Below are positions 13,621-35,016 of a stretch of DNA of 55,668 bases, piece after piece. A program made the translations under genes and the position numbers. How positions within the stretch are numbered: the stretch's first letter is position 1; every line of letters begins with the position of its first letter. Source of the stretch: Alphaproteobacteria bacterium (GTDB lineage Bacteria > Pseudomonadota > Alphaproteobacteria > Sphingomonadales > Sphingomonadaceae); contig JAUIIG010000015.1 in the NCBI GenBank assembly GCA_030431875.1, positions 1-55,668 of the forward strand, written 5' to 3'. The notes beneath the pieces were generated by a model. That model was not told the origin of the DNA. It did not search any database and saw only the letters and a program-made list of their open reading frames with translations.

Positions 13621-13638
13621 AAGACTTTCCTAATAAAT

Positions 13639-13649: not shown

Positions 13650-13694
13650 TGTATATGTCTTGCTATGCAGGAGTCAAGGGGCTATGACGCCCCC

Positions 13695-19969: not shown

Positions 19970-20020
19970 GGGCATTTCCCGGTTCTTGGCTGGGCTTGTT
20001 TCGCTACGGAGAGGTTCGCG

Positions 20021-20431
20021 TCAGTCTTCGCTGGTGGAGAAGGCACCGGAACCGACAGGATTGCCATCGGCATCGGTCACCTGGCGCAGGCGCAGGTAAC
20101 GGCTGCCATCGCGGGCCAGCCAGCCTTCCACGGTAACCCGGTCACCGGGACGCAGCGAGCGCGGCGTCCAGCCGCGGCGGGCGAGGATCGACGGCGAATT
20201 GGTCTCAATCCGCCAGTCATGTTCCTGCCCCGAAGACCCGGTAACGGTCACCACGATGCTGCCATGCGGGTTAGCGAAGCGGAACCGCTTCACCACGCCT
20301 TCGATCCGGACCAGCCGGGTGTCGTCGAAGAAGACGGCAAACGAATGGTGCGCCTGGCTGGCGATCGGAACCGATAACGCTACAAGCGCTCCAAGACCCA
20401 CGACCAGCGGCAATTTGGCCCAGCTACGCAT
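20021..20431 (-). CDS. DUF6152 family periplasmic protein
   Basis: A 136-residue protein with a signal peptide (residues 1-27, ending ASQA) followed immediately by HHSFAVFFDDTR, the family hallmark. The rest is a small beta-rich domain (VRIEGVVKRFRFANPHGSI, then PGDRVTVEGWLARDGSRY) that resembles an OB-fold. Function is unknown; the paired histidines right after the cleavage site suggest metal or ligand binding. It is the first gene of a two-gene operon and faces the TPP-enzyme gene across a region holding a TTGACATGTCAA palindrome. Confidence 0.8.
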   Translation of the reverse strand: MRSWAKLPLVVGLGALVALSVPIASQAHHSFAVFFDDTRLVRIEGVVKRFRFANPHGSIVVTVTGSSGQEHDWRIETNSPSILARRGWTPRSLRPGDRVTVEGWLARDGSRYLRLRQVTDADGNPVGSGAFSTSED

Positions 20432-20488: not shown

Positions 20489-20500
20489 TTGACATGTCAA
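20489..20500. promoter_or_regulatory. Palindrome TTGACATGTCAA, candidate MarR operator (site 1)
   Basis: A perfect 12-bp palindrome lies in the 138-bp region between the DUF6152 gene (minus) and the TPP-enzyme gene (plus). It contains TTGACA, the -35 consensus, on both strands, so a bound repressor would block polymerase either way. The same TTGA-N4-TCAA pattern occurs at 22734, 25929 and 33313. Confidence 0.6.
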
Positions 20501-20569
20501 TACCTTTTCCCCAACGAAACCCGACGCTAAGCGGGTAAGAGCCCGCAAGGCTCAGGAGAGGAATTACCG

Positions 20570-22210
20570 ATGAAAGTTGCCGAAGCGATCGCGCATATCC
20601 TGCAGGCCGAAGAGATCGAGGCCGTGTTCGGCTATCCGCGCAACCGCGTGCTGGAGACGGCATCGGAACTGGGCATCCGGCCGATCATCGTCCGGCAGGA
20701 GCGCACCGGGCTGCACATGGCCGACGCCCTGTCCCGCCTGTCGCGCGGAAAGCGGATCGGCGTTTTCGCCATGCAGCACGGGCCGGGTACAGAAAACGCC
20801 TATGGCGGCGTTGCCCAGGCCTATTCGGAATCGGTGCCGCTGCTGGTTCTGCCCATGGGTTACGACCAGACGATTTCTTACGTCCCGGACAATTACAACG
20901 CCACGCTGTCCATGCGTGACATCACCAAGCACGCAGAGCCGATCACCCTGCCGGGCGAGGTCGCCAACATCTTCCGCCGCGCCTTCACCCAGCTGCGCAA
21001 TGGTCGCCTGCGGCCGGTGCTGGTGGAAATGCCGCATGACGTGCTGGGGGCGGAAACGGACTTCGATCCGCAGGACTACCAGCCGGTCTACAGCACCCGC
21101 ACCGCGCCGGACCCGGCGGCCGTGCAGGCGGCGGCAGAGATGCTCTGCGCAGCCAAACGTCCGGTGATCTATGCCGGCCAAGGCATTCACTGGTCCGCCG
21201 CCTACAAGGAACTGGCGGAGCTGGCCGAGCTGCTGGCCATACCCGTCTGCACCAGTCTGGAAGGCAAGAGCTGCTTCGACGAGACCCATCCGCTCGCGCT
21301 CGGCTCGGGCGGGGCAGCGGTGCCGGGACAGGTGAAGCACTTCCTCGAACAGGCCGACCTGATCCTCGGCGTCGGCTGCAGCTTCTCCAAGACCGCCTTC
21401 GGCGTGTCCATGCCTGCGGGCAAGACGGTGATCCATGCCACGCTCGACCCGGCAGACCTCAACAAGGGCGTTGCCTCGAAGCTCGGCCTTGTCGGCGATG
21501 CACAGCTGACGCTGGCCGCGCTGGTGCAGGCCTGTCGCGCGATCAATCCCGACCAGCGCGACACCGCGCCGGTTGCCGAAGAGATTGCCGCGGTCGAGGC
21601 GGAATGGATGGAAGAGTGGCTGCCGCTGCTCACCAGCGAGGATGCCCCGCTCTCCCCCTACCGCGTATTGTGGGAGCTGCAGCAGGTGGTGGACGTGGCC
21701 AATACCATCATCACCCACGATGCCGGCAGCCCGCGCGACCAGCTGTCACCGTTCTGGAAGACCACGCAGCCGCTCACCTACCTAGGCTGGGGCAAGAGCA
21801 CCCAGCTCGGCTACGGCCTCGGCCTGGCCATGGGGGCCAAATATGCCTGCCCGGACAAGTTGTGCATCAATGTCTGGGGCGATGCCGCCATCGGCTTTAC
21901 CGGCATGGATTTCGAAACCGCCGTGCGCGAGCGGCTGCCGATCCTGTCCATCCTGCTGAACAATTCGGCCATGGCGATCGAGCTGCCGGTCATGCCGGTC
22001 GCTACCGAGCGGTTCCGCGCTACGGACATCTCCGGCAACTATGCCGACTTCGCCAAGGCGCTGGGCGGATATGGCGAGCGGGTGACCGATCCTGCCGACA
22101 TTGCCGCCGCCATCCGGCGCGGCATTGCCGCAACCGAGGCAGGGCAGCCGGCCTTGCTGGAATTCATGACGACGAAGGAAACGCGCGCCTCACGCGCGCA
22201 GCCGCAGTAA
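20570..22210 (+). CDS. Thiamine-pyrophosphate-dependent enzyme (acetolactate synthase / decarboxylase superfamily)
   Basis: A 546-residue enzyme of the ThDP family. The N-terminal domain has the catalytic-cycle glutamate in VRQERTGLHMADA (Glu44). The central domain is cofactor-fold like. The C-terminal domain has the ThDP/Mg motif beginning GDAAIGF at residue 437 and ending LLNNSA near 464. The usual FGxPG turn reads FGYPRNRV, a departure from standard acetolactate synthase, so a carboligase, lyase or 2-oxo-acid decarboxylase of the catabolic pathway is more likely than amino acid synthesis. A good AGGAGAGGAA site precedes the ATG. It is monocistronic and faces palindrome site 1. Confidence 0.85.
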   Translation: MKVAEAIAHILQAEEIEAVFGYPRNRVLETASELGIRPIIVRQERTGLHMADALSRLSRGKRIGVFAMQHGPGTENAYGGVAQAYSESVPLLVLPMGYDQTISYVPDNYNATLSMRDITKHAEPITLPGEVANIFRRAFTQLRNGRLRPVLVEMPHDVLGAETDFDPQDYQPVYSTRTAPDPAAVQAAAEMLCAAKRPVIYAGQGIHWSAAYKELAELAELLAIPVCTSLEGKSCFDETHPLALGSGGAAVPGQVKHFLEQADLILGVGCSFSKTAFGVSMPAGKTVIHATLDPADLNKGVASKLGLVGDAQLTLAALVQACRAINPDQRDTAPVAEEIAAVEAEWMEEWLPLLTSEDAPLSPYRVLWELQQVVDVANTIITHDAGSPRDQLSPFWKTTQPLTYLGWGKSTQLGYGLGLAMGAKYACPDKLCINVWGDAAIGFTGMDFETAVRERLPILSILLNNSAMAIELPVMPVATERFRATDISGNYADFAKALGGYGERVTDPADIAAAIRRGIAATEAGQPALLEFMTTKETRASRAQPQ

Positions 22211-22231
22211 CCGCGCCAGCCCGCAGCCGGG

Positions 22232-22693
22232 TCAGCCCTCTTCCGAAACGCTTTCCGCCATGGCCAGCAACTGCTGGTCCAGCTGGCGGCGTTCTTCCGG
22301 CGAGAGGCGGCCCATGATCCGCTCGAAAAAGCGGCGGCGGTCGGTCTTGACCCCTTCGGCCAGTTTCAACCCTTCGGGCGTAGCGGTGATGATCAGCCGC
22401 TTGCCGTGATGCGGATCGGGCTTGCGGGTCAACAGGCCCGCCGGCTCCAGCTTGCGCAGCGCGCGGCTGATCTCGGCGCGGTCGATCTCTCCCGCGATAC
22501 CAATCTCGCTGGCGGTGCACGGCCCGATACTGGTGGCAATGGCGAGCAGCCGCCACTCGGCCAGCGACAGGCCGAACTTCTCGTCCAGCAGCTTCTGCGA
22601 TTCACGGTCTATCATGCGGGCGAGCAGCAGCAGCCGGTAGGGCAGGTGGTCGCTTCCGAACAGGTTCCAGACCTTGGGGATCGTCATGGCCAT
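22232..22693 (-). CDS. MarR-family transcriptional regulator (copy 1)
   Basis: A 153-residue winged-helix repressor. It has a MarR dimerisation helix at the N-terminus (YRLLLLARMIDRESQKLL), the recognition-helix segment EIDRAEISRALRKLEPAGLL near residues 74-92, and the wing (DPHHGKRLIITATPEG). The start is uncertain: ATG 22693, ATG 22687 and GTG 22708 are all in frame and none has a strong ribosome-binding site. It ends 21 bases from the TPP-enzyme stop (convergent) and is divergent from the DUF3237 gene, with palindrome site 2 between them, so autoregulation is likely. Its DRAExSRA helix matches that of the MarR at 32719. Confidence 0.88.
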   Translation of the reverse strand: MAMTIPKVWNLFGSDHLPYRLLLLARMIDRESQKLLDEKFGLSLAEWRLLAIATSIGPCTASEIGIAGEIDRAEISRALRKLEPAGLLTRKPDPHHGKRLIITATPEGLKLAEGVKTDRRRFFERIMGRLSPEERRQLDQQLLAMAESVSEEG

Positions 22694-22733
22694 GAGGTGC
22701 CAAGCCACCGGTGCAATTGCAATGCCAATTTTG

Positions 22734-22745
22734 TTGACGTGTCAA
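22734..22745. promoter_or_regulatory. Palindrome TTGACGTGTCAA, candidate MarR operator (site 2)
   Basis: The arms TTGAC and GTCAA are perfect, separated by GT. It lies between the divergent marR copy 1 and the DUF3237 gene. On the plus strand TTGACG is followed after 17 bases by CATGAT (22757-22762), a possible -10 element whose transcript would begin close to the ATG at 22769. Confidence 0.6.
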
Positions 22746-22768
22746 TACATCGCCCGCATGATGCGGTC

Positions 22769-23251
22769 ATGGAAGAGGGACACAGTTTCGCTCCGCAACT
22801 GGAGCATGCATTCACCATCTCGATCGACCTGTCGGCACCCTACTGGGTAGAACCGACGGCGCGAGGGGAAACACGGGCGGCAATCTATGCCAGGGCGGGC
22901 ACGGTCGAAGGGCCGCGCCTCAACGGCAGCGTCGTTCCCATGTCAGGCGGCGATTTCCCGCTCCAGCGGGATAACGGGGTGATCGACTTCGATGCACGCT
23001 ACCTGCTGGAAGCATCGGACGGGGCGATCATCTACATGGAAAACCGCGGCTATCGCTGGGCCAAGGACGATGCCGTGGCGGCGCGCATGCGCAACAACGA
23101 GCCGGTCCCCTTCGATGACTACTATATGCGCGTGACGCCCAAGTTCGATGCCCCTGCCGGCCCGCACGAATGGATGAGCAAGCACGTCTTCGTCGGCGTG
23201 GCGGAGAAGGTGCCCGGCGCCAACCGCATCCACTATTTCGTCGTCCTGTGA
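22769..23251 (+). CDS. DUF3237 family protein (cytosolic copy)
   Basis: A 160-residue protein without a signal peptide. Family-type features are the opening LEHAFTISIDLSAP, GPRLNGSVVPMSGGDFPL, GVIDFDARYLLEASDGAIIYMENRGY, and the end HVFVGVAEKVPGANRIHYFVV. DUF3237 is a lipocalin-like barrel of unknown function frequent in catabolic clusters. No ribosome-binding site is visible before the ATG, and the possible promoter would start the message at or near it, so it may be leaderless. The hydrolase gene starts one base inside its stop (TGATG). Two more DUF3237 genes occur at 29597 and 30058. Confidence 0.85.
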   Translation: MEEGHSFAPQLEHAFTISIDLSAPYWVEPTARGETRAAIYARAGTVEGPRLNGSVVPMSGGDFPLQRDNGVIDFDARYLLEASDGAIIYMENRGYRWAKDDAVAARMRNNEPVPFDDYYMRVTPKFDAPAGPHEWMSKHVFVGVAEKVPGANRIHYFVVL

Positions 23252-24924
23252 TGACCGCGCCGCGGTTCAAGGGAATCTTCCGGCCCGGCGTCGATCCTTT
23301 CAGCGCCGCGCACAAGCCGCCCTTGCCGCCCGCGGACTATGACAAGCGGATCGAACAGGGCCTGCTGATCGAGCGCAATTGCGTGATCCCGCTGGCGGAC
23401 GGAACGGATATCTTTTGCGATCTCTATCGCCCTGAAGGTGCGGGCGGCGACTTGCCTATCCTGCTGGCATGGGGCCCCTACGGCAAACATGGCCTGACCA
23501 ACCAGGTGTTCTGGCCGCGTTCGGGTGTAGAGCCCGACTGGCTGTCGCCGCTGACGTCCTTCGAGGGGCCGGACCCGGTGTGGTGGGGGAACCATGGCTA
23601 CGGCGTCGCCGTGGTCGATCCGCGCGGGGCGTGGCTTTCGGGCGGCGATTTCCATCACAACGGGGCGCAGGAAGCCGAAGACTGCGCCGAGGCGGTCGAA
23701 TGGCTGGGCCGCCTGCCGTGGTGCAACGGCCGCGTGGGCATGACCGGCGTGTCCTACCTTGCCGCTATCCAGTATCTTGTCGCCCCGCTCAAGCCGGGGC
23801 CGCTCGCCGCGCTCAACCCGTGGGAGGGGTTTTCCGACTGGTACCGCGAATTCGCCTACCACGGGGGCATCCTGGAGACGGGCTTCCTGCCGCGCGCGTC
23901 GGACAATATCCAGTGGTCGCTCGGCCAGACCGAGAACACCTGGGAGAACGTCAAGGCGCACCCGCTGATCGACGCTTTCTGGGAATCCAAGGCGCTCGAC
24001 CTCGAAGCCATCGGCCAGCCCGCCTATGTCGTCGCCAGCTGGTCCGACCAGGGCCTGCACTTGCGCGGCACGATCGAGGCGTGGCGACGCATGAGCAGCA
24101 CGGAAAAATGGCTGGAAGTGCACGGGCAGAAGAAGTGGGCGCACTATTACCGCCCCGAAAGCCGCGCTCGGCAGTTGGCCTTCTTCGACCATTTCCTGCG
24201 CGACCGGTCCACCAGCATTGCCGCCTGGCCGCCGGTGCGCATCGAGGTGCGCGAGAAGCACGGCGTTGCCACTGAGCGGGAAGAGCTGGAATTCCCGCTG
24301 GCGCGCACCGCATACAAGGCGCTTTACTTCGACGCCGGACAGCAAGTTCTGGGCGAGGACATGCCCGCCGAAGCCGCGCAGTTGCGGCAGCATGCCGCGG
24401 AGGGTTCAACCAGCTTCGACTTCACCTTCGCCGAAGATACCGAACTGACCGGCTACGCCGCGCTCAAGCTGTGGGTCGAAGCCGAAGGGGCTGAGGACAT
24501 GGACCTGTTCGTCGCCCTGCAAAAACTGGACGCGAACGGCGAAGAGGTCGGCTTCACCTTTTACGCCTTCTACGAGAACGGTCCCGTCGCGCTGGGCTGG
24601 CAGCGGGTCAGCCACCGCGCGCTCGATCCGGACCGTTCGATGCCCGAGCGCCCCGTCCACCTGCACAGGGCTGAAGAGCTGTTGTCGCCGGGCGAGATCG
24701 TGCCGGTCGAGATCGAGTTCTGGCCCTCTTCAACCCTGTTCCGTGCCGGTGAAACCCTGCGCCTCGTGATCGCCGGCAGCGATATCTACCGGCGCGAGGA
24801 AGGCGTCATGCTGCCCTTCCCCCTGCACGAGCAGACCCGCAATAGCGGAACGCACGTGTTCCATGCGGGCGGGACATATGACAGCCGCTTGCTGGTGCCG
24901 GTGGTTCCGGCGAAAGCAGGCTGA
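23251..24924 (+). CDS. CocE/NonD family hydrolase (S15-type alpha/beta hydrolase)
   Basis: A 557-residue serine hydrolase. The catalytic serine is in GMTGVSYLA (Ser168), the G-x-S-Y elbow of the X-Pro dipeptidyl-peptidase/CocE group. The N-terminus has VIPLADGTDIFCDLYRP, the usual family opening. The C-terminal part is the jelly-roll domain (ELTGYAALKLWVEAEGAEDMDLFV). Substrates of the family are esters or amides. It is coupled to the DUF3237 gene by a one-base overlap, and its stop lies one base from the convergent AraC stop. A role in releasing an ester-linked pathway substrate is inference. Confidence 0.88.
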   Translation: MTAPRFKGIFRPGVDPFSAAHKPPLPPADYDKRIEQGLLIERNCVIPLADGTDIFCDLYRPEGAGGDLPILLAWGPYGKHGLTNQVFWPRSGVEPDWLSPLTSFEGPDPVWWGNHGYGVAVVDPRGAWLSGGDFHHNGAQEAEDCAEAVEWLGRLPWCNGRVGMTGVSYLAAIQYLVAPLKPGPLAALNPWEGFSDWYREFAYHGGILETGFLPRASDNIQWSLGQTENTWENVKAHPLIDAFWESKALDLEAIGQPAYVVASWSDQGLHLRGTIEAWRRMSSTEKWLEVHGQKKWAHYYRPESRARQLAFFDHFLRDRSTSIAAWPPVRIEVREKHGVATEREELEFPLARTAYKALYFDAGQQVLGEDMPAEAAQLRQHAAEGSTSFDFTFAEDTELTGYAALKLWVEAEGAEDMDLFVALQKLDANGEEVGFTFYAFYENGPVALGWQRVSHRALDPDRSMPERPVHLHRAEELLSPGEIVPVEIEFWPSSTLFRAGETLRLVIAGSDIYRREEGVMLPFPLHEQTRNSGTHVFHAGGTYDSRLLVPVVPAKAG

Positions 24925-24931
24925 ATCAGCC
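24919..24931. other. 13-bp palindrome spanning two convergent stop codons
   Basis: GGCTGA-A-TCAGCC is perfect, and both convergent stops (hydrolase TGA and AraC TGA on the other strand) lie within it. A GCAGG...CCTGC pair outside could extend the stem. There is no strong T-run, so it is at best a weak bidirectional terminator. Confidence 0.3.
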
Positions 24932-25897
24932 TTTGACCTGCTGCATTTGCGCGAGGAAAGTGCTCGGGCTGGTGCCGAAGCGTTCGCGGAACGAGCGGCT
25001 GAAATGCGAGGAACTGTTGAAGCCGTAATCGAAGGCGAGCGCGGTCAGCGTGGTCGATTGTTCGGGCTGCTTTTCCAGCCGGCTGCGGCACAGGTCCAGC
25101 CGCCGGTTCCAGATATAGCGCGACACCGTTTCCGGACCGTCGAAAGTCTTGTGGACGTAGCGCCGGGTACAGCCCAGCGCACGAGCTATCCGGTCGAGCG
25201 ACAAGTCCGGGTCGTGCAGGTTGCGGTCGATATAGTCGCGGGCACGGCGCGCCATCTCGACGCGCGAGGTCTGCGGCTCCGGCACGTGCGGCAGGTCCAG
25301 CAAGGCCCGCTGGAACATCCCGGTGATCTGCCGCGCGAGGTCGCTGGCCTCTCCGGCTGACATCTCGCCCGGCGCAGAAACCGCGTGCATCATGTATTCG
25401 CGCAGGTCGCCGCCAGCCGCACGGCTGAGAGGCAGCGGAGTCTCCAGAATGCGCGCCATATCGACCTGTTCCAGATCAAGGCTGCTGCGGGGCAATTCGA
25501 GCCACAGATGCGACACGTCGCCGTGGTTGATCGCCGATTGCTGCTGATGCGGATCGATGACCATCCAGTCCCCCGGTCGCAGCTGGAACGTCCGGTTGCC
25601 GTGGAACAACAGGGTCTTGCCGGTATGCTGGTAGCGTAGGCGCAGCTTGGCATCACCGCGGGATGTCAGGGAGTTCATCATGACCCGGTGCGGCGTGGAA
25701 GACAGGCGAAAAACGGCAAGCTCGTCGAGCCGTCGGTGAGTAACCTCGGCATCGAATACATCGCTTATGGCTTCGGCCCGGACGCCGCCGATCCGGCTGG
25801 AACCGGCGTTCCAGAAGGCGATCCGCTCCGCGGGATCAATCGCGCTTGTCGAGGCGGAAAACGCCCTTCCCATCCGGCTCCACTCCCTTGGCCGCAT
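24926..25897 (-). CDS. AraC-family transcriptional regulator
   Basis: A 323-residue regulator. The N-terminal half is a cupin-like sensor of the AraC-binding-like type (FHGNRTFQLRPGDWMVIDP). The C-terminal roughly 100 residues hold the two helix-turn-helix motifs of AraC (LSLDRIARALGCTRRYVHKTF and LTALAFDYGFNSSSHFSRSFRERFG). Members with this sensor often activate catabolic genes in response to aromatic or related inducers. ATG 25897 is used; ATG 25873 is also possible. Palindrome site 3 overlaps a TTGACA that sits 18 bases from TACTTT, a plausible promoter for this gene. Confidence 0.9.
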   Translation of the reverse strand: MRPREWSRMGRAFSASTSAIDPAERIAFWNAGSSRIGGVRAEAISDVFDAEVTHRRLDELAVFRLSSTPHRVMMNSLTSRGDAKLRLRYQHTGKTLLFHGNRTFQLRPGDWMVIDPHQQQSAINHGDVSHLWLELPRSSLDLEQVDMARILETPLPLSRAAGGDLREYMMHAVSAPGEMSAGEASDLARQITGMFQRALLDLPHVPEPQTSRVEMARRARDYIDRNLHDPDLSLDRIARALGCTRRYVHKTFDGPETVSRYIWNRRLDLCRSRLEKQPEQSTTLTALAFDYGFNSSSHFSRSFRERFGTSPSTFLAQMQQVKG

Positions 25898-25928
25898 TTC
25901 TTATGCGCCAAAAGTAGGCCGGTATTTG

Positions 25929-25940
25929 TTGAGATGTCAA
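25929..25940. promoter_or_regulatory. Near-palindrome TTGAGATGTCAA, candidate MarR operator (site 3)
   Basis: One mismatch from the perfect form. It lies upstream of the AraC gene. On the minus strand it reads TTGACA, with TACTTT 18 bases further on, so it would overlap the -35 of the AraC promoter. It follows the same TTGA-N4-TCAA pattern as the other three sites. Confidence 0.5.
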
Positions 25941-26004
25941 CTTAATTGGAAAATGAGGGGGCGGCCCTTCCAGTGACCGCCCCACTCCATCTACGGTACC
26001 AGGA

Positions 26005-28545
26005 TCAGAAATCCTTCCGCAGGGTGATCGCCCATTCACGCGGGCGAGCCGGCGTCGCGATGCGGCCGCCGTTGTTGTTGCGCTGGTCGAACGACGAGTA
26101 GAAGTAATACTCGTCGGTCAGGTTGGTGACCTCCAGTGCGATCGAAAGGTCTTCCTCCTCGTTGCGCCAGGTCACGCGGGCGTTGGCCGTGGTGAAGCTG
26201 GGCAGGTAGGTTTCGATACGGCCAAGGGCGCCGTTGTTGAAACCGGAGAAGGTTTCGTCCTGGTAGTACACGTCGACGCGCGGGGTGAGCGACCCGGCAT
26301 CGCCGAGGTCGATCCGGTACTGCGCACCGAGCGACCACTTCCATTCCGGCATGCCGGTACCCGGATCGGTCAGCAGCGCGCCCGATGCCGGATTGACGAA
26401 GGTGTACTCGAAATCGAGCCAGCTGAGCGAGCCGACGATTTGCAGGTCGTCAACCGGTTCGGCAAACAGTTCGAGTTCGATACCGCGGATGTCCGCGCTG
26501 CCCGAGTTCACGCGGCAGGCGCTGGGCGTTTCCGTACCCGGAACCCCGGTCGGGCACGGGCTCGCGGTCGACTGGATGTCGCTGTACTTGTTCAGGAACG
26601 ACGACAGGTTCAGTCGCAGACGGCGGTCGAACAGGTCCGACTTGAAGCCTACTTCGTATGCCGTCAGCGTTTCCGGACCGAACGGGAGCAGCTGGAAGGC
26701 GTTGAACGGACGCGGGTTGGAACCGCCGCCCTTGAAGCCCGTGGCAATCGACGCATAGACGAGGAACTCGTCGCTGAAGCGATAGTCCAGAGCCACACGG
26801 TAGTCGACCTGGTCACCGGTGTAACTGGCGGTGTTGCCCGTCAGTGCGCGCAGTTCTTCGGTGGTGTTGCCATTGCCGTTGCAATCGTTGGTATCGACGC
26901 CCGAGAACCCTTCGCCGCAAATCGCGCCCACGGGATCGAGGAAGGCGTTGACCGTTCCGTCCAGGTTATAACGGAAATAGGCCTGGTCCTTGCTTTCCTC
27001 GGTGTAGCGAATGCCAGCATTCAGGTTCAGGTCCGGAACGATCTCCCACGACAGGTTGGCGAAGACTGCCTGTGCATCAGCGTCCACCGTATCCGGCTGG
27101 CGGAACTGCAGCGGATAGACCGGAACATAGCGCAGATCCTGCGTCGAATCGTAAATCGAGGACTGTTCGAAGTAGTATCCACCCAGCGTCACGAAGACCG
27201 TGTCGGTGGCTTCGATATTCAGGCGCAGTTCCTGGCTGAAGCTCCAGTTTTCAAGGTCGTTGACACCATAACCTGTGCGCGCCGGGGAAATGTCACCGTC
27301 GGCGGCGAAGTAGGACTCGAATTCACGGTAGCCAGTGATCGAGACCAGTTGCAGACGCTCGGTGATATCCCAGTTGGCCTGGCCGGAAACGCCCCAGCCG
27401 CGATAGGTGGTACGATTCGAACCGCGCGTTTCCAGCAGCGGTGTGCCATTGGCACCGAACGGGTCAGGCGGAATCGGCGAAATGAACGGATTGCCGGCCG
27501 CATTGCCATCAACCTGGAAGTTACAGAACGGACCACAGATGAAGCGGTCGTCGATGGGAAGGCCGCCCGGCGACAGGATGTTTGTATTGGCGTTGCGGCG
27601 CGTGGCCTGCAGCACCTGCCCGGCGACGGTCTGATCCTGGTCGGTAAAATCGCCGATAATGGTGAAGTCGAAATCAGGGCTCGGTTCCCAGCGCAGGATT
27701 GCGCGCGCAGCCTGATAGTTCGTGCCGCCCAGCTCCGCGACCAGACAGTCGTCGGTGGTGACAAAGCGCGCTTCGCCGCCTGCCGGGTTGACGGGTTCCG
27801 CCACACCAGTGCCGCCATCGTTGACCGATTGCGTGAACATGGCGGGGCCACCAGCCGGGTAGACGCAGCCGAAATCGAGCTGGTCGACGTAGCCGTCCTG
27901 GGTTTTCGAGACGCCCGAGACACGGGCGAACAGCGTATCTGTAAGCGCGAACTCCGCCGCTGCGCGCAGCGTAACGCGGTCGCGGCTGCCGTAGCCAGCT
28001 TCGACGAAGCCGCCGGTGTCGCCGCTGGGCATGCGCGAATACATCTTCACCGCGCCACCGATCGAGTTACGACCCGACAGCGTACCCTGCGGACCGCGCA
28101 GGATTTCCACGCGATCGAGGTCAAGCGTATCGAAGATCGCGCCGGTCAGCGACGGATAGTAGATATCATCGATGTAGATACCCACGCCCGGCTCGTAAGC
28201 GGGGTTGAAGTCGTTCTGGCCGATACCGCGGATCGAGGCGGTAACCGAGGGACCGAAGGCAGCCGTCTGCGGACGGATCTGCACGTTCGGTGCACTGTCG
28301 GCGATGGTCGCCAGGTCGGTCTGGCTACGGGCCTGCAGTTCCTCGGCGGTGACAGCGGTGATCGCCAGCGGCGTATCCTGCAGTTCCTGCTCGCGGAACT
28401 GTGCTGTCACGATGATGACGTTGCGGGGCTGTTCCTCAGCTCCGGACTCGTCCTGCGCCATGGCAGGATTGCTTGCCAGGGCGAGGACGGACGCACTCAG
28501 CGCCAGTGCCGACCTCCTGAACAAGCTCTTGGAAACAGTACTCAT
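26005..28545 (-). CDS. TonB-dependent receptor of the carotenoid-oxygenase operon
   Basis: An 846-residue outer-membrane receptor. The signal peptide runs to about residue 30 (ending NPAMAQ), then a TonB-box-like NVIIVTAQFREQE, a plug with LDRVEILRGPQGTLSGRNSIGG near residue 150, and a barrel ending TLRKDF. It is the last gene of a minus-strand run with a lipoprotein, two DUF3237 genes and a carotenoid-oxygenase-family gene, 34 bases after the lipoprotein. It is therefore likely to import the hydrophobic substrate of that operon; the ligand is unknown. Confidence 0.92.
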   Translation of the reverse strand: MSTVSKSLFRRSALALSASVLALASNPAMAQDESGAEEQPRNVIIVTAQFREQELQDTPLAITAVTAEELQARSQTDLATIADSAPNVQIRPQTAAFGPSVTASIRGIGQNDFNPAYEPGVGIYIDDIYYPSLTGAIFDTLDLDRVEILRGPQGTLSGRNSIGGAVKMYSRMPSGDTGGFVEAGYGSRDRVTLRAAAEFALTDTLFARVSGVSKTQDGYVDQLDFGCVYPAGGPAMFTQSVNDGGTGVAEPVNPAGGEARFVTTDDCLVAELGGTNYQAARAILRWEPSPDFDFTIIGDFTDQDQTVAGQVLQATRRNANTNILSPGGLPIDDRFICGPFCNFQVDGNAAGNPFISPIPPDPFGANGTPLLETRGSNRTTYRGWGVSGQANWDITERLQLVSITGYREFESYFAADGDISPARTGYGVNDLENWSFSQELRLNIEATDTVFVTLGGYYFEQSSIYDSTQDLRYVPVYPLQFRQPDTVDADAQAVFANLSWEIVPDLNLNAGIRYTEESKDQAYFRYNLDGTVNAFLDPVGAICGEGFSGVDTNDCNGNGNTTEELRALTGNTASYTGDQVDYRVALDYRFSDEFLVYASIATGFKGGGSNPRPFNAFQLLPFGPETLTAYEVGFKSDLFDRRLRLNLSSFLNKYSDIQSTASPCPTGVPGTETPSACRVNSGSADIRGIELELFAEPVDDLQIVGSLSWLDFEYTFVNPASGALLTDPGTGMPEWKWSLGAQYRIDLGDAGSLTPRVDVYYQDETFSGFNNGALGRIETYLPSFTTANARVTWRNEEEDLSIALEVTNLTDEYYFYSSFDQRNNNGGRIATPARPREWAITLRKDF

Positions 28546-28579
28546 TATTCATTCTCCCTCTGGTTACTCAAATCATGGA

Positions 28580-29578
28580 TTATTCATCATCCGACCAGGC
28601 GACGACCGGCTCTCCCCACGGGGAAGAAGAGTAATACGGTGCCTGGTAGAACGTTGCGACGACGGCCGAAATGCAGCCGTCCTCAACCTTGAACATCTCC
28701 AGCAAGCCCCAGCTCTGCGGCTCCTGGAAGATGGAAGTGGCAGGTGTGCCGTCGGTCAACGTGTAGTCGTCGAGCACACCCTTATGATCGATAAACCCCC
28801 TCGCGAGCGCCACTTGGCGAACTTCATCGATCAATACAACATCGCGGCGAACGCGGTTGTTGAAGCGGTAGCGCCCGCTCTCGAAGGCGCCGAGAATGTC
28901 AGTGAACAGCAGCCCGTTTTCGCGCCGCGTCGCTTCGGGATGGAAGCAGGTGCCGCGGATCTCGCCGTCGTTCTGTTGCAGGGTATCGAAGTAGCCGTTG
29001 GCATGGGCGGCCAGTTCGTCACGCGTCAGCCGCTCGCCTTCGGGCACGACCTGGTCGATGTTCGGCTCATGCACATATTCGTCCACCTCGCCGATCGGCG
29101 TCGGCGGGCTGGAAAGGTTTCGGCTGGTCGAGATGATGTGTTCAGCCTCGGTGATCTCGCCGCCTTCCACCTTCAGGCGAATGGCCAGGAAGCCCGGGAT
29201 CTCGCGTTGCCGGATCGCGGTGAAGACGGCGACGGTGCCAAGCTCCGGATCGGACAAGGTCAGCGGCGGGCCGACCTCTTCGGTCACCGTGTCCCAGGTG
29301 CCGTCGGGAAAGGGCATGGCGACATTGTTCTCGGTGAAGCGCACGATCCCCGCGAAGGGAGCCCGCGAAGGATCGTGCGCCAGGTATGCCGCCCGGTACT
29401 GGTCGGCAATTCCTTCGAGGCACTGGGCGTCGCAGGCCCGCGCCTGCTCGCTCTCGGCAGTGTCCTGCTCGTTCGCATCGCCCACGCATCCGACAAGGCC
29501 TGCCGCCGCCAGCAGCGCCGCTGCCGGAGCCAGCTTGGCCAGCCAGTGCGGGGTCGTTGCAGAAATCATTCGTGCCAT
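28580..29578 (-). CDS. Predicted lipoprotein of unknown function
   Basis: A 332-residue protein with a lipoprotein signal: hydrophobic stretch and lipobox LVGC with Cys31. After it come an acidic linker and two similar halves that look like NTF2/SnoaL-type domains (GIADQYRAAYLAHDPSRAPF, then AHANGYFDTLQQNDGEI). This repeat is my reading and should be treated as tentative. The ATG at 29578 follows GGGGAGAG. It sits 18 bases after the DUF3237 gene and 34 before the receptor, so it probably works in the envelope with them. Confidence 0.72.
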   Translation of the reverse strand: MARMISATTPHWLAKLAPAAALLAAAGLVGCVGDANEQDTAESEQARACDAQCLEGIADQYRAAYLAHDPSRAPFAGIVRFTENNVAMPFPDGTWDTVTEEVGPPLTLSDPELGTVAVFTAIRQREIPGFLAIRLKVEGGEITEAEHIISTSRNLSSPPTPIGEVDEYVHEPNIDQVVPEGERLTRDELAAHANGYFDTLQQNDGEIRGTCFHPEATRRENGLLFTDILGAFESGRYRFNNRVRRDVVLIDEVRQVALARGFIDHKGVLDDYTLTDGTPATSIFQEPQSWGLLEMFKVEDGCISAVVATFYQAPYYSSSPWGEPVVAWSDDE

Positions 29579-29596
29579 GTCTCTCCCCAACCCCGC

Positions 29597-30058
29597 TCAG
29601 GTAACTTCGTAATAGGTGATGGTGATGCTGCGCCCGTCGGCAGCGGGACGGCCCACGCCGATGAAGAACAGGCCCTGCACCCAGTCGTGCTGCCCGCGCA
29701 CGTCGGCATCGACCCAGCTGGTGACCCGGTAATAGCCGTCGGGCCGCCGGTAACCGATGTTGCGCAGGTAAAGCCATTCGCCCTGTTCGCTGTCGTCACG
29801 CAGCAGCACGTGACCGTCGACGTCGATGACGCCATCTTCGCGTCCAAGCGAGTACTCGCCAGCGCCGTCAGGGTAGACGGTCCCGTTGATCCGCCCGGAA
29901 ATGGTGCCCCCGTCGATGCGCTTGAAAATGCGGTCCCCGCGCGGCGAATGGAACCGCTCTGCCGGGGCATATTCCAGCGTGACCGTGAAGGCCGGTTCGA
30001 AGCCGAGGTCGGCGACAAATTCCTCGCCGCGATCGGCCGCTATGGACATGCGTTCCAT
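29597..30058 (-). CDS. DUF3237 family protein (second copy of the operon)
   Basis: A 153-residue protein without signal peptide. It matches the family pattern: EPAFTVTLEYAPAERFHSPRGDRIFKRIDGGTISGRINGTVYP, GVIDVDGHVLLRDDSEQGEWLYLRNIGYR, and the end LFFIGVGRPAADGRSITITYYEV. The ATG at 30058 shares one base with the stop of the upstream DUF3237 gene (TGATG). A GTG one codon earlier is also in frame. Being coupled to an exported paralogue suggests that the two may act on the same compound in different compartments. Confidence 0.82.
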   Translation of the reverse strand: MERMSIAADRGEEFVADLGFEPAFTVTLEYAPAERFHSPRGDRIFKRIDGGTISGRINGTVYPDGAGEYSLGREDGVIDVDGHVLLRDDSEQGEWLYLRNIGYRRPDGYYRVTSWVDADVRGQHDWVQGLFFIGVGRPAADGRSITITYYEVT

Positions 30059-30681
30059 CACAGCACCTCGTAGTAGGTGAAGATGGTGCGGTCGGGATCG
30101 ACCATGCGCAGGCCGTGGCCGATGAACAGGGTGCTGTTCATCCAGGCGTGCGGGCTGTTCACCGGGGCATCGAAGAACGGCGAGGTGCGCATGCGCAGCG
30201 GCACCTCGTCGTTGGAGCCGGAGACGAATTCCTGGCTGAAGCTGCCATCGGCATTGACCGGACCGACGGCGCGCCGGACCTGGTCCGCCGGGTCAGCACC
30301 GATGCGGCGCATGTAGCCGCGATTGTTGATGTAGATATAGTGACCGTCCTCGGCCTGGAACATGTAGTGGGCGTCCAGCGGACCACCGCCACCGCCGAAG
30401 TCGGCCCCGCCATAGGGCACTACCCGGCCGGTCAGGCGCGGCCCCCAGATGTCCCCACCGATGGCCGGCACGAAGGCGCGGCGGAACGGGGAATCGATGG
30501 CAATGCGTTCGCGGAAGAAGACGCTGACGGAGAAGGCCCAGCGATACTGCAAGCCGTTCTTTTCGCGGATCGGCTCGGTGGTCGGCGTGTCCTGCGCGGC
30601 AACGCTGCCAGCATGGGCGGCAAGCGCCGTCGCACCGGCTGCCACGGCGGCTCCGCCAAGCAGGTTCCTGCGGTCGATCAT
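30058..30681 (-). CDS. Tat-exported DUF3237 family protein
   Basis: A 207-residue protein with a twin-arginine signal (DRRNLLGGAAVAAGATALA, arginines at residues 4-5), ending near AAQ. The mature part is a DUF3237 domain: RLTGRVVPYGGADFGGGGG, LDAHYMFQAEDGHYIYINNRGY, and STLFIGHGLRMVDPDRTIFTYYEV. It is exported folded, which is unusual for a protein of this type. It starts inside the carotenoid-oxygenase stop (ATGA) and ends one base into the next DUF3237 gene, so all three are coupled. Confidence 0.85.
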   Translation of the reverse strand: MIDRRNLLGGAAVAAGATALAAHAGSVAAQDTPTTEPIREKNGLQYRWAFSVSVFFRERIAIDSPFRRAFVPAIGGDIWGPRLTGRVVPYGGADFGGGGGPLDAHYMFQAEDGHYIYINNRGYMRRIGADPADQVRRAVGPVNADGSFSQEFVSGSNDEVPLRMRTSPFFDAPVNSPHAWMNSTLFIGHGLRMVDPDRTIFTYYEVL

Positions 30682-32240
30682 GCCTGCCCTCCCCCTGGAT
30701 TGGTGAACAGGCTGGCGTCGTATTGCGCTGCCCCGGCGTGGTCGGCCTGCCCGGCTCCCGCCCCGGCCTGCATGGGCATCAGCCCCGGCAGTTCCTCGGC
30801 ATCGTACCACGCCCCGTGGACCTGCGGCCCGCCGCGGAACGGCAGGATGACGCGGGCAATGTCCCCTTCGGACAGGCGCTGGGCATCGACGATCACAAGC
30901 TCGGTGCGCAGTTCGGCGAGGTTGGATGCGGTGCCGATCAGGTAGCCGTCGCCTTCCGCCTCGCTGCCCCGGCGCGGCACGAAGCTGCATTCCTGCAAGC
31001 TGTGGGTTTCACCGACGAAGTAGCTTTCCATCTGGCCGGTTGCGATGTCGAACCGGCCATAGCTGTTCGACACGCGCCCGCGCACATTGCCTGCCCGCGC
31101 CTCGTCGAACGGGCGTGTGGGGTCGGCAAAGCTGGTAAAGGCATAGCGTGCTGGCAGCGTCAGGTAACGATGGTCGATCTTGGCAAGGTCGCTCACCTGC
31201 GTCGGGAAGAGCACTTCCTCCTCCCAGCCATCGCTCGACGAGGACAGGTCGAAGGTCAGCTTGCGGATGAAGGCGCGCGCCTTCGACGGGTCCCACGGGC
31301 TGCCGTCGACATTGGGGAAGAAGGGGAAGAAATTGCCGTCGTAGAAAGGCGCGTAGAGCGTCACCCTGTCGCCTTCGCTCACCGCGTTGAGCGTGTGCAT
31401 CATGCAGCGTTCCGGACCGCGGAACCAGCGCAGGTCGCTGCCATCGCCGTCGCGCCGCATGATACCGACCATGCTGGGCAGGGTACGGTCCCACCCCCAG
31501 TGGATCTGTCCTTCGCGCAGCCGCTCCATGCTGGTGGTATAGCAGCCGAAAGTGAACAGCACGTGGTCCTGCGTCACCGCCCAGTCGTGCACGAGCGAAA
31601 CGTAAGGCACCTTGACGCGCGCCTCGTGGGTCACACTGCCGTGGCGGTCGATCACGTAGAAGAACAAGTCATCGCTGGCGAGGCCCGTCGCCTCGTAACC
31701 GAAGGTCAGCATTTCGCCTGAAACGGGGTCGATCTTGGGGTGCGCGGTAAAGGTCTGGCTGTTGTAGCCGCCGCCAAAATCGTGCGGTCCCATGGTGGCC
31801 AGCGTGGCCGGATCGATCCGGTATGGCAGCGCGTCCTCTTTCAGCGCGAAGAGCATGCCGGCATGGGCCAGCGGCGCGGTGTTGGCCACCGTGGCATCCA
31901 GCCCGCGCACCTTCTCGTCATTGGTGAAGGGATTGCGGTAATAGCCGAACTGCTGGCGCCCTTCGGCGAGGTTGGCGCGGAAGCGGGGTGTTTCGACGTA
32001 GCGGCCGCTGAACGAGCACTTGCCGTCCTTGATACGGAATGCGGTGATGTAGCCGTCGGAATGGAGCGGGGCATCGTCTTCGAACTTGGGCGGATAGTAC
32101 CACTCCCCGCCCACGCGCACGAAGACACCGTCCATGTCCGACGGGATCGTGCCCACGACTTCGCAATCGGCCAGCTGCGCATCGAAGCGCTGCGGCGCGA
32201 AGAAGCCTTGTGCTCCCGGCTCGTTGAATGCGTCGACGAT
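30678..32240 (-). CDS. Carotenoid oxygenase / lignostilbene dioxygenase family protein, probable ATC start
   Basis: About 520 residues of a seven-bladed propeller non-haem iron oxygenase that cleaves double bonds of carotenoids, apocarotenoids or stilbenes. Visible landmarks are GTIPSDMDGVFVRVGG, the iron histidines in FTAHPK, SLVHDW, MMHTLNA and GAWYD-adjacent VHGAWYD, and the conserved acidic residues between them. The first conventional start is GTG 32156, but the open frame continues upstream with family-like sequence (NEPGAQGFFAPQRFDAQLAD). That leads to an ATC at 32240 placed four bases after GGGAGAGG. No ATG, GTG or TTG lies between that and the TAG at 32268. The real start is therefore probably ATC (or there is a base error). 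It heads the DUF3237-lipoprotein-receptor operon. Confidence 0.82.
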   Translation of the reverse strand: MVDAFNEPGAQGFFAPQRFDAQLADCEVVGTIPSDMDGVFVRVGGEWYYPPKFEDDAPLHSDGYITAFRIKDGKCSFSGRYVETPRFRANLAEGRQQFGYYRNPFTNDEKVRGLDATVANTAPLAHAGMLFALKEDALPYRIDPATLATMGPHDFGGGYNSQTFTAHPKIDPVSGEMLTFGYEATGLASDDLFFYVIDRHGSVTHEARVKVPYVSLVHDWAVTQDHVLFTFGCYTTSMERLREGQIHWGWDRTLPSMVGIMRRDGDGSDLRWFRGPERCMMHTLNAVSEGDRVTLYAPFYDGNFFPFFPNVDGSPWDPSKARAFIRKLTFDLSSSSDGWEEEVLFPTQVSDLAKIDHRYLTLPARYAFTSFADPTRPFDEARAGNVRGRVSNSYGRFDIATGQMESYFVGETHSLQECSFVPRRGSEAEGDGYLIGTASNLAELRTELVIVDAQRLSEGDIARVILPFRGGPQVHGAWYDAEELPGLMPMQAGAGAGQADHAGAAQYDASLFTNPGGGQA

Positions 32241-32267
32241 GTTTCCTCTCCCGGTTTGTGTCGCTGG

Positions 32268-32570
32268 CTATGTCATGAAGGGCATGATGTAACGGAGCCG
32301 TTCCTCGGCCATGTCCGCAAGCGGGCTTGCGCCGTGAAAGCCGGCGGGCGGACGATAGGCCGGCATCTTGCCAGACCTGTCCAGCAGCGGCCGGTCATCG
32401 AAAAACGAGAGGTGTGCCTTGCGGGCGCGGCCTTCCCCAGCGGTACGCGCGGCTGCTGCAGGTGCAGCCAGCGCCAGGGCACCGCAGCACGACGCTGCGA
32501 GCACGGCTCGCCGGTCACACAGCAAGTGGCCAGCACCTTCTTCCCCAGATGATGATTCACACGGCACCAT
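32268..32570 (-). CDS. Hypothetical small Tat-signal protein
   Basis: An open frame of about 100 residues from ATG 32570 (a longer start at 32732 overlaps the marR stop). It contains a Tat-like signal DRRAVLAASCCGALALAAPAAAA and a short tail ending RLRYIMPFM. It ends in TAG in the same frame as the carotenoid oxygenase, 27 bases before that gene's likely start. No ribosome-binding site is obvious and the family is not recognised. It may be a real small exported protein, since its neighbour also has a Tat signal, or an unused frame. Confidence 0.4.
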   Translation of the reverse strand: MVPCESSSGEEGAGHLLCDRRAVLAASCCGALALAAPAAAARTAGEGRARKAHLSFFDDRPLLDRSGKMPAYRPPAGFHGASPLADMAEERLRYIMPFMT

Positions 32571-32718
32571 TGGCGGGGAGCTTAAGCCACGAGCAGGGGG
32601 CGCGTCTTGCACGAGAGGGAACGCCTCTGGCGCCGGATCCGCCTGGCCGGTGGCCTCCATGGCATGCCCGGGCCGGGTGATTGGGTTGCGACCCAGGCGC
32701 ACGGATTGCGGGATAACT

Positions 32719-33216
32719 CTAGCGCGGCTCATGTGATGCGTCCTCCGACGATGCGGCGGCCAGGGCCTGTCGCAATTTTTCGATCACCCGTTCGAACGCC
32801 TGCAATTCACCGGAATCAAGGTGCTCGATCAGCTTGCGATGGAAGTCGGCGCGATCCTTCACGACGCGGCGGTACAGCGCCCAGCCTTGCTCGCTGAGGG
32901 CAAGCAAGGGAGCGCGCTTGTCCTGGCCGTTTTCCTTCCGCTGCAGCAGCCCGCGCCCTTCCAGCGTGCTTGCTGCCCGGCTCACTTCGGCGCGGTCGAC
33001 CCATGCCTGCTCGGCCAGCTGGCCCACTGTAGCGCCATCGGGTGCCTCGCCAAGCCGGGCGACGACGCGCCACTGCGCGTAGGAAAGCCCGAAGCTCTCC
33101 GACAAATGGCGAATTGTCGCGCGATCCATCACCCTCGACAGTAGGCTCATCCGGAAAGTCGGAAAGTCGAGGCCGGAAATCTGCCAGCCTGGCGTCGCTC
33201 CAGATTCCTTGGTCAA
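32719..33216 (-). CDS. MarR-family transcriptional regulator (copy 2)
   Basis: A 165-residue winged-helix regulator. Its recognition-helix segment WVDRAEVSRAASTLEGRGLL closely matches that of the MarR at 22232, pointing to the same DNA sequence. The N-terminal helix (FRMSLLSRVMDRATIRHL) and the wing (NGQDKRAPLLALSEQG) are typical. The start is a TTG at 33216, preceded by GGGAGGCGAGGGA. It is divergent from the GMC oxidoreductase operon, with palindrome site 4 between, and upstream of the carotenoid-oxygenase operon, so it probably represses both and itself. Confidence 0.87.
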   Translation of the reverse strand: MTKESGATPGWQISGLDFPTFRMSLLSRVMDRATIRHLSESFGLSYAQWRVVARLGEAPDGATVGQLAEQAWVDRAEVSRAASTLEGRGLLQRKENGQDKRAPLLALSEQGWALYRRVVKDRADFHRKLIEHLDSGELQAFERVIEKLRQALAAASSEDASHEPR

Positions 33217-33312
33217 TCCCTCGCCTCCCCGTGTCGCAGTGTCGCCGCGGCGCAGGAGATCGTCTCCTGCGTTGCGCCGATAAGCCCATGGCGCTAGGAC
33301 AGGACGAATTCA

Positions 33313-33324
33313 TTGATTAGTCAA
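33313..33324. promoter_or_regulatory. Palindrome TTGATTAGTCAA, candidate MarR operator (site 4)
   Basis: Arms TTGA and TCAA around TTAG, in the 153-bp divergent region between marR copy 2 and the first GMC gene. On the minus strand it gives TTGACT, a good -35. It fits the TTGA-N4-TCAA pattern of the other three sites. Confidence 0.55.
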
Positions 33325-33369: not shown

Positions 33370-35016
33370 ATGCGAACCGATTGCGGCGACTTCGATTACA
33401 TCATCGTGGGATCGGGTTCCGCCGGTGCTGTTGTCGCTTCCCGCCTGGCGGAAGATGGCAAGCGAAGCGTGCTCTTGCTGGAAGCGGGAAAGTCGGACCG
33501 GCGCGAAATCATCGACATGCCGGTTGCATGGTTCAAGGCCATGCGCACCCCGGATATCGGCTGGGGATACCTGAGCGAGCCCGAGCCTTTCGCCAACGAC
33601 CGGCGCATTCCGGCGCCGCGCGGCAAGGTCGTCGGCGGCTGTGCGGCGATCAACGGGATGATGTACTCGCGGGGCAACCCACGCGACTACGACGACTGGG
33701 CACAAGGTGGGTGTACCGGTTGGAGCTTTGCAGACGTCCTGCCCTACTTCCGCAAGTCCGAGACGAACTGGCGCGGTGGCTCGGAATACCACGGCGATGA
33801 CGGCCCGATAACGGTTGCCCGGCACCAGTCGGATGACACGGTTTTCCCCGCGATCATGGATGCCGCGCGCGCGCTGGGCGACAAGGCCATCGACGACTTC
33901 CACGGCGCGGATACCGAGGGGTGGAGCGTCCCCGATTTCACCATCCACGGCGGCAAGCGGGGCAGCCCGGCCGCGCGGATGTTGCGCCCCGCCCTCAAGC
34001 AGCAGAACCTGCGCCTGCTGACCGACGCGCTCGCGGAGCGCGTGGTGCTGGACCATGGCCGGGCAACCGCGCTCGAGTTCCGCCTTGGTGGAGAACCCGC
34101 CAGGGCAACCGCACGCCGCGAGATCATCGTCTGCGCCGGGGCCTTCAACACGCCCCACCTGCTGATGCATTCGGGCATCGGACCCGCCGAACACCTCCGC
34201 GACCACGGCATCGCGGTGCTGCATGACCTGCCCGGCGTGGGCGAGAACCTGCAGGATCATGCCAGCATCGGCATACTGTTCGAGGCCAGCGGCGGGTTCA
34301 CCTTCGACCGCGAACTGCGCGCGGACCGGTTCGCCCTCTCGCTGCTGCGCTGGAAGCTCCTGGGCAAGGGTCCGCTGGCCGGGTTGCCCGTGGGAGCGCA
34401 GGGCTTCCTGCGTACGCGCGAAGGCCTGGACCGACCCGACCTGCAATTGCTGGTCAGCCCCGTCGCAATGGACGCTCATATCTGGTTCCCCGGCCTGAAA
34501 AAGGCACGCGGCGATTACCTGACGATAGCCAACGTGCTGCTCAATCCGCAAAGCAAGGGGCGCATTCGCCTGAAGTCTGCTGACCCGCTGGACTTGCCGG
34601 CCGTCCACCTCAACCTGCTTCAGTCGCCGGCAGACAGGCAGAGCTTCCGCCGCTTCGTGCGGTTCACGCGCAAGCTGCTGGCGACCGAACCCGCTAGCGG
34701 CCTCGTCAAGCGCGAGGTCTCGCCCGGACCGGACGTGCAATCGGACGACGAGATTGACGCATTCGTCCGCGGCGCTGTGGGCACTGCCATGCATCCCACC
34801 AGCACCTGCGCCATGGGCACCGGTTCGATGGCCGTGGTTGACCCGCAATTGCGCGTCCATGGTACTGCGGGCCTGCGCGTGGTGGATTGCTCCGTCATGC
34901 CCAACATCGTCGGCGGCAATACCAATGCCCCGGCCATCATGATTGCCGAGAAAGCAGCGGATATGATTATTGCGGCGGAACGGGCCCAGGCCACCGGCAG
35001 CAAGGAAGCGGCATGA
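33370..35016 (+). CDS. GMC-family FAD oxidoreductase (copy 1)
   Basis: A 548-residue flavoenzyme of the glucose-methanol-choline family that oxidises primary alcohols to aldehydes. FAD-binding motif GSGSAGAVVASRL is near residue 17. The two GMC signatures are visible: GKVVGGCAAINGMMYSRG near residue 90 and CAGAFNTPHLLMHSGIGP near 260. The active-site pair is His475 (GTAMHPTSTC) and the Asn of GGNTNAPAIM. The ATG at 33370 follows GGAGAGG. It overlaps the next GMC gene by four bases and leads an operon with aldehyde dehydrogenase, as expected for stepwise alcohol oxidation. Confidence 0.93.
   Translation: MRTDCGDFDYIIVGSGSAGAVVASRLAEDGKRSVLLLEAGKSDRREIIDMPVAWFKAMRTPDIGWGYLSEPEPFANDRRIPAPRGKVVGGCAAINGMMYSRGNPRDYDDWAQGGCTGWSFADVLPYFRKSETNWRGGSEYHGDDGPITVARHQSDDTVFPAIMDAARALGDKAIDDFHGADTEGWSVPDFTIHGGKRGSPAARMLRPALKQQNLRLLTDALAERVVLDHGRATALEFRLGGEPARATARREIIVCAGAFNTPHLLMHSGIGPAEHLRDHGIAVLHDLPGVGENLQDHASIGILFEASGGFTFDRELRADRFALSLLRWKLLGKGPLAGLPVGAQGFLRTREGLDRPDLQLLVSPVAMDAHIWFPGLKKARGDYLTIANVLLNPQSKGRIRLKSADPLDLPAVHLNLLQSPADRQSFRRFVRFTRKLLATEPASGLVKREVSPGPDVQSDDEIDAFVRGAVGTAMHPTSTCAMGTGSMAVVDPQLRVHGTAGLRVVDCSVMPNIVGGNTNAPAIMIAEKAADMIIAAERAQATGSKEAA

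Follow-up and report, generated by a model that had tools for sequence, protein, structure and literature searches.

Local control of catabolic genes by a neighbouring MarR-family regulator is an ordinary and known kind of gene control. CouR of Rhodococcus jostii RHA1 is a MarR repressor of p-hydroxycinnamate catabolism, and its inverted repeat, cATTGA--TCAATg, lies over the -35 box; one copy separates two divergent promoters, and further copies belong to the same regulon (PMC4737184). We describe a comparable layout in contig JAUIIG010000015.1 of assembly GCA_030431875.1, from an alphaproteobacterium of the family Sphingomonadaceae. The whole stretch analysed, 55,668 nucleotides, is called the window. 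It carries a catabolic island with two regulator genes, marR1 and marR2, and four copies of the palindrome TTGA-N4-TCAA. Judged from their sequence and surroundings, the four palindromes are very probably docking sites of two related MarR proteins. The reading that we consider likely is that of two paralogous, self-controlling MarR repressors with near-identical operators within one island, MarR1 using sites 1-3 and MarR2 using site 4.

The likeness to CouR is one of operator and layout, in that a MarR protein is predicted here to govern its own gene together with aromatic catabolic genes. Unlike the CouR box, ATTGA-N5-TCAAT, the spacer has 4 bp and not 5. TTGA-N5-TCAA was found 0 times in the window and, among the 80 named loci described below, near marR in a single one, and a CouR/FerC-type box with N5 spacing was rejected, the spacing here being 4. 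MexR of Pseudomonas aeruginosa shares the MarR fold and has inverted GTTGA half-sites, but these are 5 bp apart and the protein controls an efflux pump, not catabolism (PMC9892617). BhbR2 of Pigmentiphaga kullae likewise belongs to the MarR family, acts in aromatic catabolism and has TTGATT/AATCAA half-sites over the -35 box; it differs in being an activator and in its site, TTGATT-N5-AATCAA, which corresponds to TTGA-N9-TCAA (PMC12016517). Among sphingomonads, Novosphingobium aromaticivorans has a MarR-like regulator, Saro_0803, which governs the stilbene-degrading gene nov1 and is released by resveratrol (PMC10046596). A tie to a stilbene-type oxygenase gene is predicted for MarR2 too, but the Saro_0803 operator is GCAATA-N6-TATTGC and is placed at the -10 box (PMC10046596). 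With a different operator, and with MarR2 scoring 30.6 bits against the Saro_0803 family model NF053777 (cut-off 200; MarR1 unlisted at E up to 0.001), MarR2 was rejected as a Saro_0803 orthologue. The HpaR model TIGR02337 gave 38.1 bits for MarR1 and 44.3 bits for MarR2, below its cut-off of 121.2. DesR of Sphingobium sp. SYK-6 is again a sphingomonad MarR repressor with inverted-repeat operators, acting on lignin-derived aromatics, but its operator is another sequence, GTTTGTGTCACATAC-like (PMC6888825). In the open-licence literature searched, no MarR was described for a gene set such as the present one among the matches listed, and five exact operator strings gave no match. What is new here is the subfamily-wide operator, and its shared use by two paralogues of a single island.

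The initial annotation had reported four intergenic TTGA-N4-TCAA palindromes, and a search of the window with the pattern TTGANNNNTCAA returned exactly these and no others: site 1 (TTGACATGTCAA, 20489..20500), site 2 (TTGACGTGTCAA, 22734..22745), site 3 (TTGAGATGTCAA, 25929..25940) and site 4 (TTGATTAGTCAA, 33313..33324). Site 1 lies between the genes for a DUF6152 protein (minus strand) and a thiamine-pyrophosphate (TPP) enzyme (plus strand), site 2 between marR1 (minus) and the DUF3237a gene (plus), and site 4 between marR2 (minus) and the GMC oxidoreductase gene GMC1 (plus). The divergent promoters assumed in that annotation are thus found at three of the sites; site 3 has minus-strand genes on both sides, coming after the stop of a TonB-receptor gene and 32 bp before araC if that gene starts at 25897, or 56 bp before it if the start is at 25873. 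By codon-based gene calls all four sites are intergenic, in a window that is about 93% coding. Dinucleotide shuffles of the window (n=100) contained 0.31 matches on average and 2 at most, and 0/100 reached 4. Summed over the other twelve spacings k from 0 to 12, TTGA-Nk-TCAA gave 1 match in the window. The genome to which the window belongs (2.96 Mb, 91 contigs) has 11 copies of TTGA-N4-TCAA as against 5 of the backwards-read control pattern; 4 of the 11 are on this contig, the probability of at least 4 of 11 falling here being 3.7e-5, and the 7 elsewhere are intergenic in 5 cases and inside genes in 2 (rough codon-based gene calls). The longer form TGTTGA-N4-TCAACA has three matches in this genome when at most one mismatch is allowed, and these are sites 1-3.

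Relatives of both regulators were sought among 298 genomes sampled from the family. A match to MarR1 at E<=1e-10 was found in 150 and a match to MarR2 in 220, and the best 30 loci of each search were fetched. Beside non-self MarR1 relatives (L013-L028) the palindrome lies within about 150 bp of marR in 13/16 cases, compared with 0/13 beside more distant MarRs (L029-L041). For MarR2 relatives (L043-L048), TTGATTAATCAA-like palindromes are present in 6/6 loci, compared with 0/21 among the more distant loci of that search (L049-L071, leaving out the repeats L056 = L014 and L058 = L028). The 18 stretches around MarR1 relatives (346 kb) hold 36 copies of TTGA-N4-TCAA where 2.97 are expected and 0-5 of each other spacing, and TTGA with k=4 ranks first in a look-elsewhere test on them; the 6 stretches around MarR2 relatives hold 8 where 0.93 are expected.

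A second set was obtained from named genomes by an alignment-based scan, which gave 96 relatives, the best 80 of which were used; here 'near marR' means -400 to +60. Fifty of these 80 loci have TTGA-N4-TCAA near marR, 62 copies altogether, while each other spacing from 0 to 12 is found near marR in 0-2 loci. Sites with spacing 4 are intergenic in 157/160 cases against 42/112 for other spacings (p = 2.9e-31). The comparison of coding with intergenic frequency proposed in the initial annotation therefore came out in favour of the palindromes, both in the window and in related genomes, as the pattern is not equally common in coding sequence. Twenty tandem pairs, 19-24 bp apart, were also found (among the loci L101, L134, L135, L138, L143, L152-L154, L158 and L159). 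This spacing, about two helical turns, suggests two dimers on one face of the DNA.

Two weight matrices were trained solely on other genomes, with no site from the genome of the window: one on 29 sites beside MarR1 relatives (identity at least 40%) and one on 6 sites beside MarR2 relatives. With the MarR1 matrix, sites 1, 2 and 3 score 22.6, 26.3 and 27.3 bits, versus -3.9, 5.5 and 5.2 bits with the MarR2 matrix. Site 4 behaves the other way round, with 26.2 bits for MarR2 versus 13.8 bits for MarR1. The two operator types differ mainly in the centre and in the flanking base, which is mostly G at MarR1 and A or C at MarR2. In the window, the MarR1 matrix ranks site 4 next below sites 1-3, then a position inside a gene (11.2 bits) and then nothing above 1.8 bits, and given these falling scores a fifth site is not claimed.

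MarR1 and MarR2 are 31% identical, and both score above Pfam MarR-type cut-offs. The AlphaFold model of MarR1 (mean pLDDT 91) has a helix at residues 73-83, and its best fold matches in the PDB are MarR structures; structures of MexR are also among the fold matches. In a tree of 94 proteins, made by a quick method and with 36/90 inner branches weak, one clade of 80 (SH-aLRT 99) contains all 57 site-bearing rows, and 0/14 rows outside it have an exact site. Within it, 27 of the 28 rows of a MarR1 clade, window MarR1 included, have the palindrome near marR, and MarR2 belongs to a separate clade of 21 rows. Helix 73-83 reads D-x-A/S-E-V/I-S-R-A in both the MarR1 and the MarR2 clade. Its glutamate, Glu75 (numbered on window:22235-22696 and located inside the model helix), is found in 49/49 proteins of the two clades and in 0/14 outside. 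Over the whole tree set the helix pattern is present in 56/57 site-bearing rows versus 23/37 rows without a site. Both window regulators carry the helix, as D-x-A-E-[VI]-S-R-A, and both genes have the exact palindrome beside them (sites 2 and 4); these are the two features by which we define the TTGA-N4-TCAA MarR clade.

The closest relative found is a locus on metagenome-assembled contig JAUHWC010000006.1 (G298), whose MarR1 is 79% identical. Its gene order is the same as in the window (TonB receptor, araC, S15, DUF3237a, marR1, TPP, DUF6152), and it has a palindrome at each of the three places that correspond to sites 1-3. No MarR2 orthologue and no site 4 were found in G298; the best match to MarR2 anywhere in it is its own MarR1, at 32%. 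Behind the gene for a 154-aa protein, G298 (as locus L176) has a CEMIP-type gene, 57% identical to that of the window and in opposite orientation relative to its neighbours, in place of which the window has, at 32.7-42.3 kb, marR2, GMC1, GMC2, an aldehyde dehydrogenase (ALDH) gene, a FAD monooxygenase gene, a SnoaL gene and an FGGY kinase gene. Elsewhere on the G298 contig there are weaker relatives of GMC1 (48%) and ALDH (43%). Taken together, the absence of a detected MarR2 orthologue and the CEMIP-type gene indicate that the MarR2 module was gained here, lost there or moved. In addition, G298 has a one-mismatch palindrome near the end of the gene for a 336-aa protein, before a TonB-receptor gene.

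Other related loci keep parts of the arrangement. Altererythrobacter sp. KTW20L (L098) has marR1, DUF3237a and S15, with palindrome, and in Aurantiacibacter suaedae (L099) an additional site precedes a gene for an MFS transporter. In Croceibacterium salegens (L072/L097) one palindrome lies between a MarR1 relative and a relative of the TonB-receptor gene that in the window belongs to the marR2 run, and relatives of the oxygenase and DUF3237 genes adjoin the latter. This arrangement makes the two halves of the island look functionally linked. In neither Altererythrobacter sp. KTW20L nor Croceibacterium salegens were palindromes seen at all three of the places that sites 1-3 occupy in the window.

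In the proposed mechanism, a MarR1 dimer would sit on each of sites 1-3, with the recognition helix of each subunit reading one TTGA half-site. At site 1 it would block the promoters of the DUF6152 and TPP-enzyme genes, at site 2 its own promoter and that of the DUF3237a-S15 unit, and at site 3 the araC promoter. A MarR2 dimer on site 4 would block marR2 together with its downstream genes for the lignostilbene-type oxygenase, DUF3237 and the TonB receptor, as well as the divergent GMC-GMC-ALDH operon. An aromatic pathway intermediate may then bind each repressor and release the DNA. The arrangement is comparable to the one known from CouR and other local MarR repressors: the dimer would occupy an inverted repeat across the -35 region.

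Several results weigh against this reading or limit it. When 256 tetramers and 13 spacings are compared within the window, TTGA with k=4 is only 6th by Poisson p (1.7e-4), so that the window by itself is only suggestive; a chance origin of the palindromes was nevertheless dropped, as the same pair is 1st in the stretches around MarR1 relatives. In the 6 stretches around MarR2 relatives it is only 4th. Counted over the whole genomes of 18 relatives, the pattern is commoner than its backwards-read control in 13, as common in 1 and rarer in 4, and from these mixed counts the enrichment is local. TGTTGA-N4-TCAACA with two mismatches occurs 15 times in the genome of the window compared with 18 for the control, which leaves only the one-mismatch level informative. 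Genes were called with a simple codon scorer made for this analysis. Among the MarR1 relatives, L015, L026 and L027 have no near exact site, and the site of L028 is downstream and not upstream of marR. In the named set 30/80 loci are without a near exact site, as are 23/80 rows of the large clade, and 15/80 named loci are on contigs whose length equals that of a contig in the first set, which means that the sets overlap and cannot count as independent. The named-genome scan used the recognition helix as one of its two patterns, and by this selection the link between helix and site is partly circular. G298 has no exact palindrome before the oxygenase operon. Finally, only six sites went into the MarR2 matrix, and the flanking base, which helps to tell the operator types apart, switches several times on the tree and is not clade-pure; for these reasons cross-binding may occur.

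Nineteen loci without an exact near site were examined, and a one-mismatch version was seen at the operon start in 11, none in 7, while 1 could not be judged. One-mismatch forms near marR also occur in L142, L150, L156 and L163, and, as a further point against, in L155, which is outside the clade. In Sphingobium sp. SYK-6 (L132), which is one of the 11, the one-mismatch form ATGATGATTCAA is found at 6381, between GMC2 and ALDH relatives, and similar forms are present in L121, L131, L136 and L139. The L132 locus is presumably the one that contains phcC and phcD.

The initial annotation had placed the genes of the island in one MarR regulon. That the palindromes resemble MarR-type operators and so link several catabolic genes to control by MarR is supported; that they form a single regulon does not agree with the two operator types. 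A single MarR acting at all four sites, or both acting interchangeably, would account for the common core TTGA-N4-TCAA, for the same recognition-helix motif in MarR1 and MarR2, both within one operator-sharing clade, and for Croceibacterium salegens, where a MarR1 relative is paired with relatives of marR2-run genes across one site. But the operators of sites 1-3 and site 4 differ in type, G298 keeps sites 1-3 while neither a MarR2 orthologue nor site 4 was found there, and site 4 is within the promoter region of marR2 itself. We therefore regard one shared regulon as unlikely, and prefer two repressors, each with its own sites.

The palindromes could also be bare symmetric -35 boxes (TTGACA) read by no regulator. 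On the minus strand the sequence is indeed TTGACA at sites 1-3 and TTGACT at site 4, but the -35 overlap proposed earlier amounts to no more than a likeness: the promoter scan was no better than shuffles (3 matches versus 2.1), with one match at site 2 on the plus strand, and it gave no convincing -10 boxes, a result that also counts against the repressor reading. A -35 box explains one half of the palindrome only, while the second half and the N4 spacing are kept beside the regulator and tandem copies 19-24 bp apart exist. After the promoter scan, and with no -10 boxes standing out, the bare -35 box was dropped as highly improbable. Activation in place of repression has a precedent in BhbR2, which activates from its TTGATT-N5-AATCAA site over the -35 box (PMC12016517), but a position beside marR and over a -35-like sequence is what CouR and similar repressors have (PMC4737184), and by this analogy activation seems quite improbable for MarR1 and MarR2.

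Function of the genes was assigned with Pfam and NCBIfam. The gene marR1 (22232..22696, minus strand, start uncertain within 22693-22708; Pfam MarR) would control, apart from itself, a minus-strand unit at 19184..20431 with the DUF6152 gene (20021-20431) and, downstream, a gene for a 263-aa protein without Pfam match (19184-19975); the TPP-enzyme gene (20570..22210, plus; above the cut-off of NF004807); a plus-strand unit at 22769..24924 with DUF3237a (22769-23251) and a CocE/NonD S15-type hydrolase (23251-24924; TIGR00976); and the AraC-family regulator gene (24926..25897, minus). A terminator-like hairpin is found at 25983-25958, between the TonB-receptor gene and site 3/araC; such hairpins are not enriched in the scan (10 found versus 10.1 by chance). 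The gene marR2 (32719..33216, minus; Pfam MarR_2 and MarR) is predicted to be co-read with a same-strand run behind it (26005..32732), whose genes have close or overlapping ends, consistent with one operon, and encode a 154-aa protein, a lignostilbene-dioxygenase-like oxygenase, two DUF3237 proteins, a 336-aa protein and a TonB receptor. GMC1, GMC2 and ALDH (33370..38182, plus) are the predicted divergent target of MarR2. Altogether the window encodes three DUF3237 proteins, two GMC oxidoreductases, one aldehyde dehydrogenase and TonB receptors.

The oxygenase gene (30678-32156, minus) scores 463.7 bits, below its NCBIfam cut-off of 800. Its frame (30678-32270) stays open beyond GTG 32156, the first start listed, until it meets a stop near 32270, and this upstream part has no ATG, GTG or TTG and contains an ATC after a ribosome-site-like stretch; it is possibly due to a sequencing difference or an unusual start. 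At 13638 there is an AT-rich, palindrome-like sequence, TAAATTACATAATGTATGTA, intergenic and 2nd in the MarR2 matrix scan (13.5 bits), flanked by genes at 12688-13620 (minus) and 13665-14351 (plus, AhpC/TSA family).

The same kinds of gene recur in the 80 named loci, in which relatives of DUF3237 were found in 42, of S15 in 39, of RPE65 in 20, of ALDH in 20 and of GMC in 13; at least one of the five is present in 64/80. The 7 named loci outside the clade have none of them. Among the 27 named loci of the MarR1 clade, 24 have a DUF3237a relative and 22 an S15 hydrolase relative. Sequence identity between PinX, a DUF3237 protein that acts in pinoresinol catabolism, and two decarboxylases of the phenylcoumaran pathway is 42% (PhcG) and 38% (PhcF) (PMC12607616), and PhcC and PhcD, GMC enzymes going by the title of the paper on them, oxidise a phenylcoumaran alcohol (PMC11323797). 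On account of this kinship and of the GMC type of PhcC and PhcD, a pathway for lignin-type dimers is the likeliest role of the island, its substrate being suggested by analogy.

A wider picture is offered tentatively, as we think it less likely than not to hold as a whole. It is that of a mainly alphaproteobacterial MarR subfamily in which the TTGA-N4-TCAA core is kept through the helix glutamate and which is wired mainly to DUF3237, S15, GMC, ALDH and lignostilbene-oxygenase genes. Cross-binding paralogues could in this case form a two-signal gate that orders two halves of a pathway, after an older MarR1 island had acquired a MarR2-GMC module (or relatives had lost it).

The operators offer a direct way to study how sphingomonads may turn on what appears to be catabolism of lignin-type aromatics. 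TTGA-N4-TCAA together with a MarR carrying DxAE[VI]SRA allows regulon members to be predicted in dozens of genomes, and given a ligand, palindrome and MarR could serve as a sensor part.

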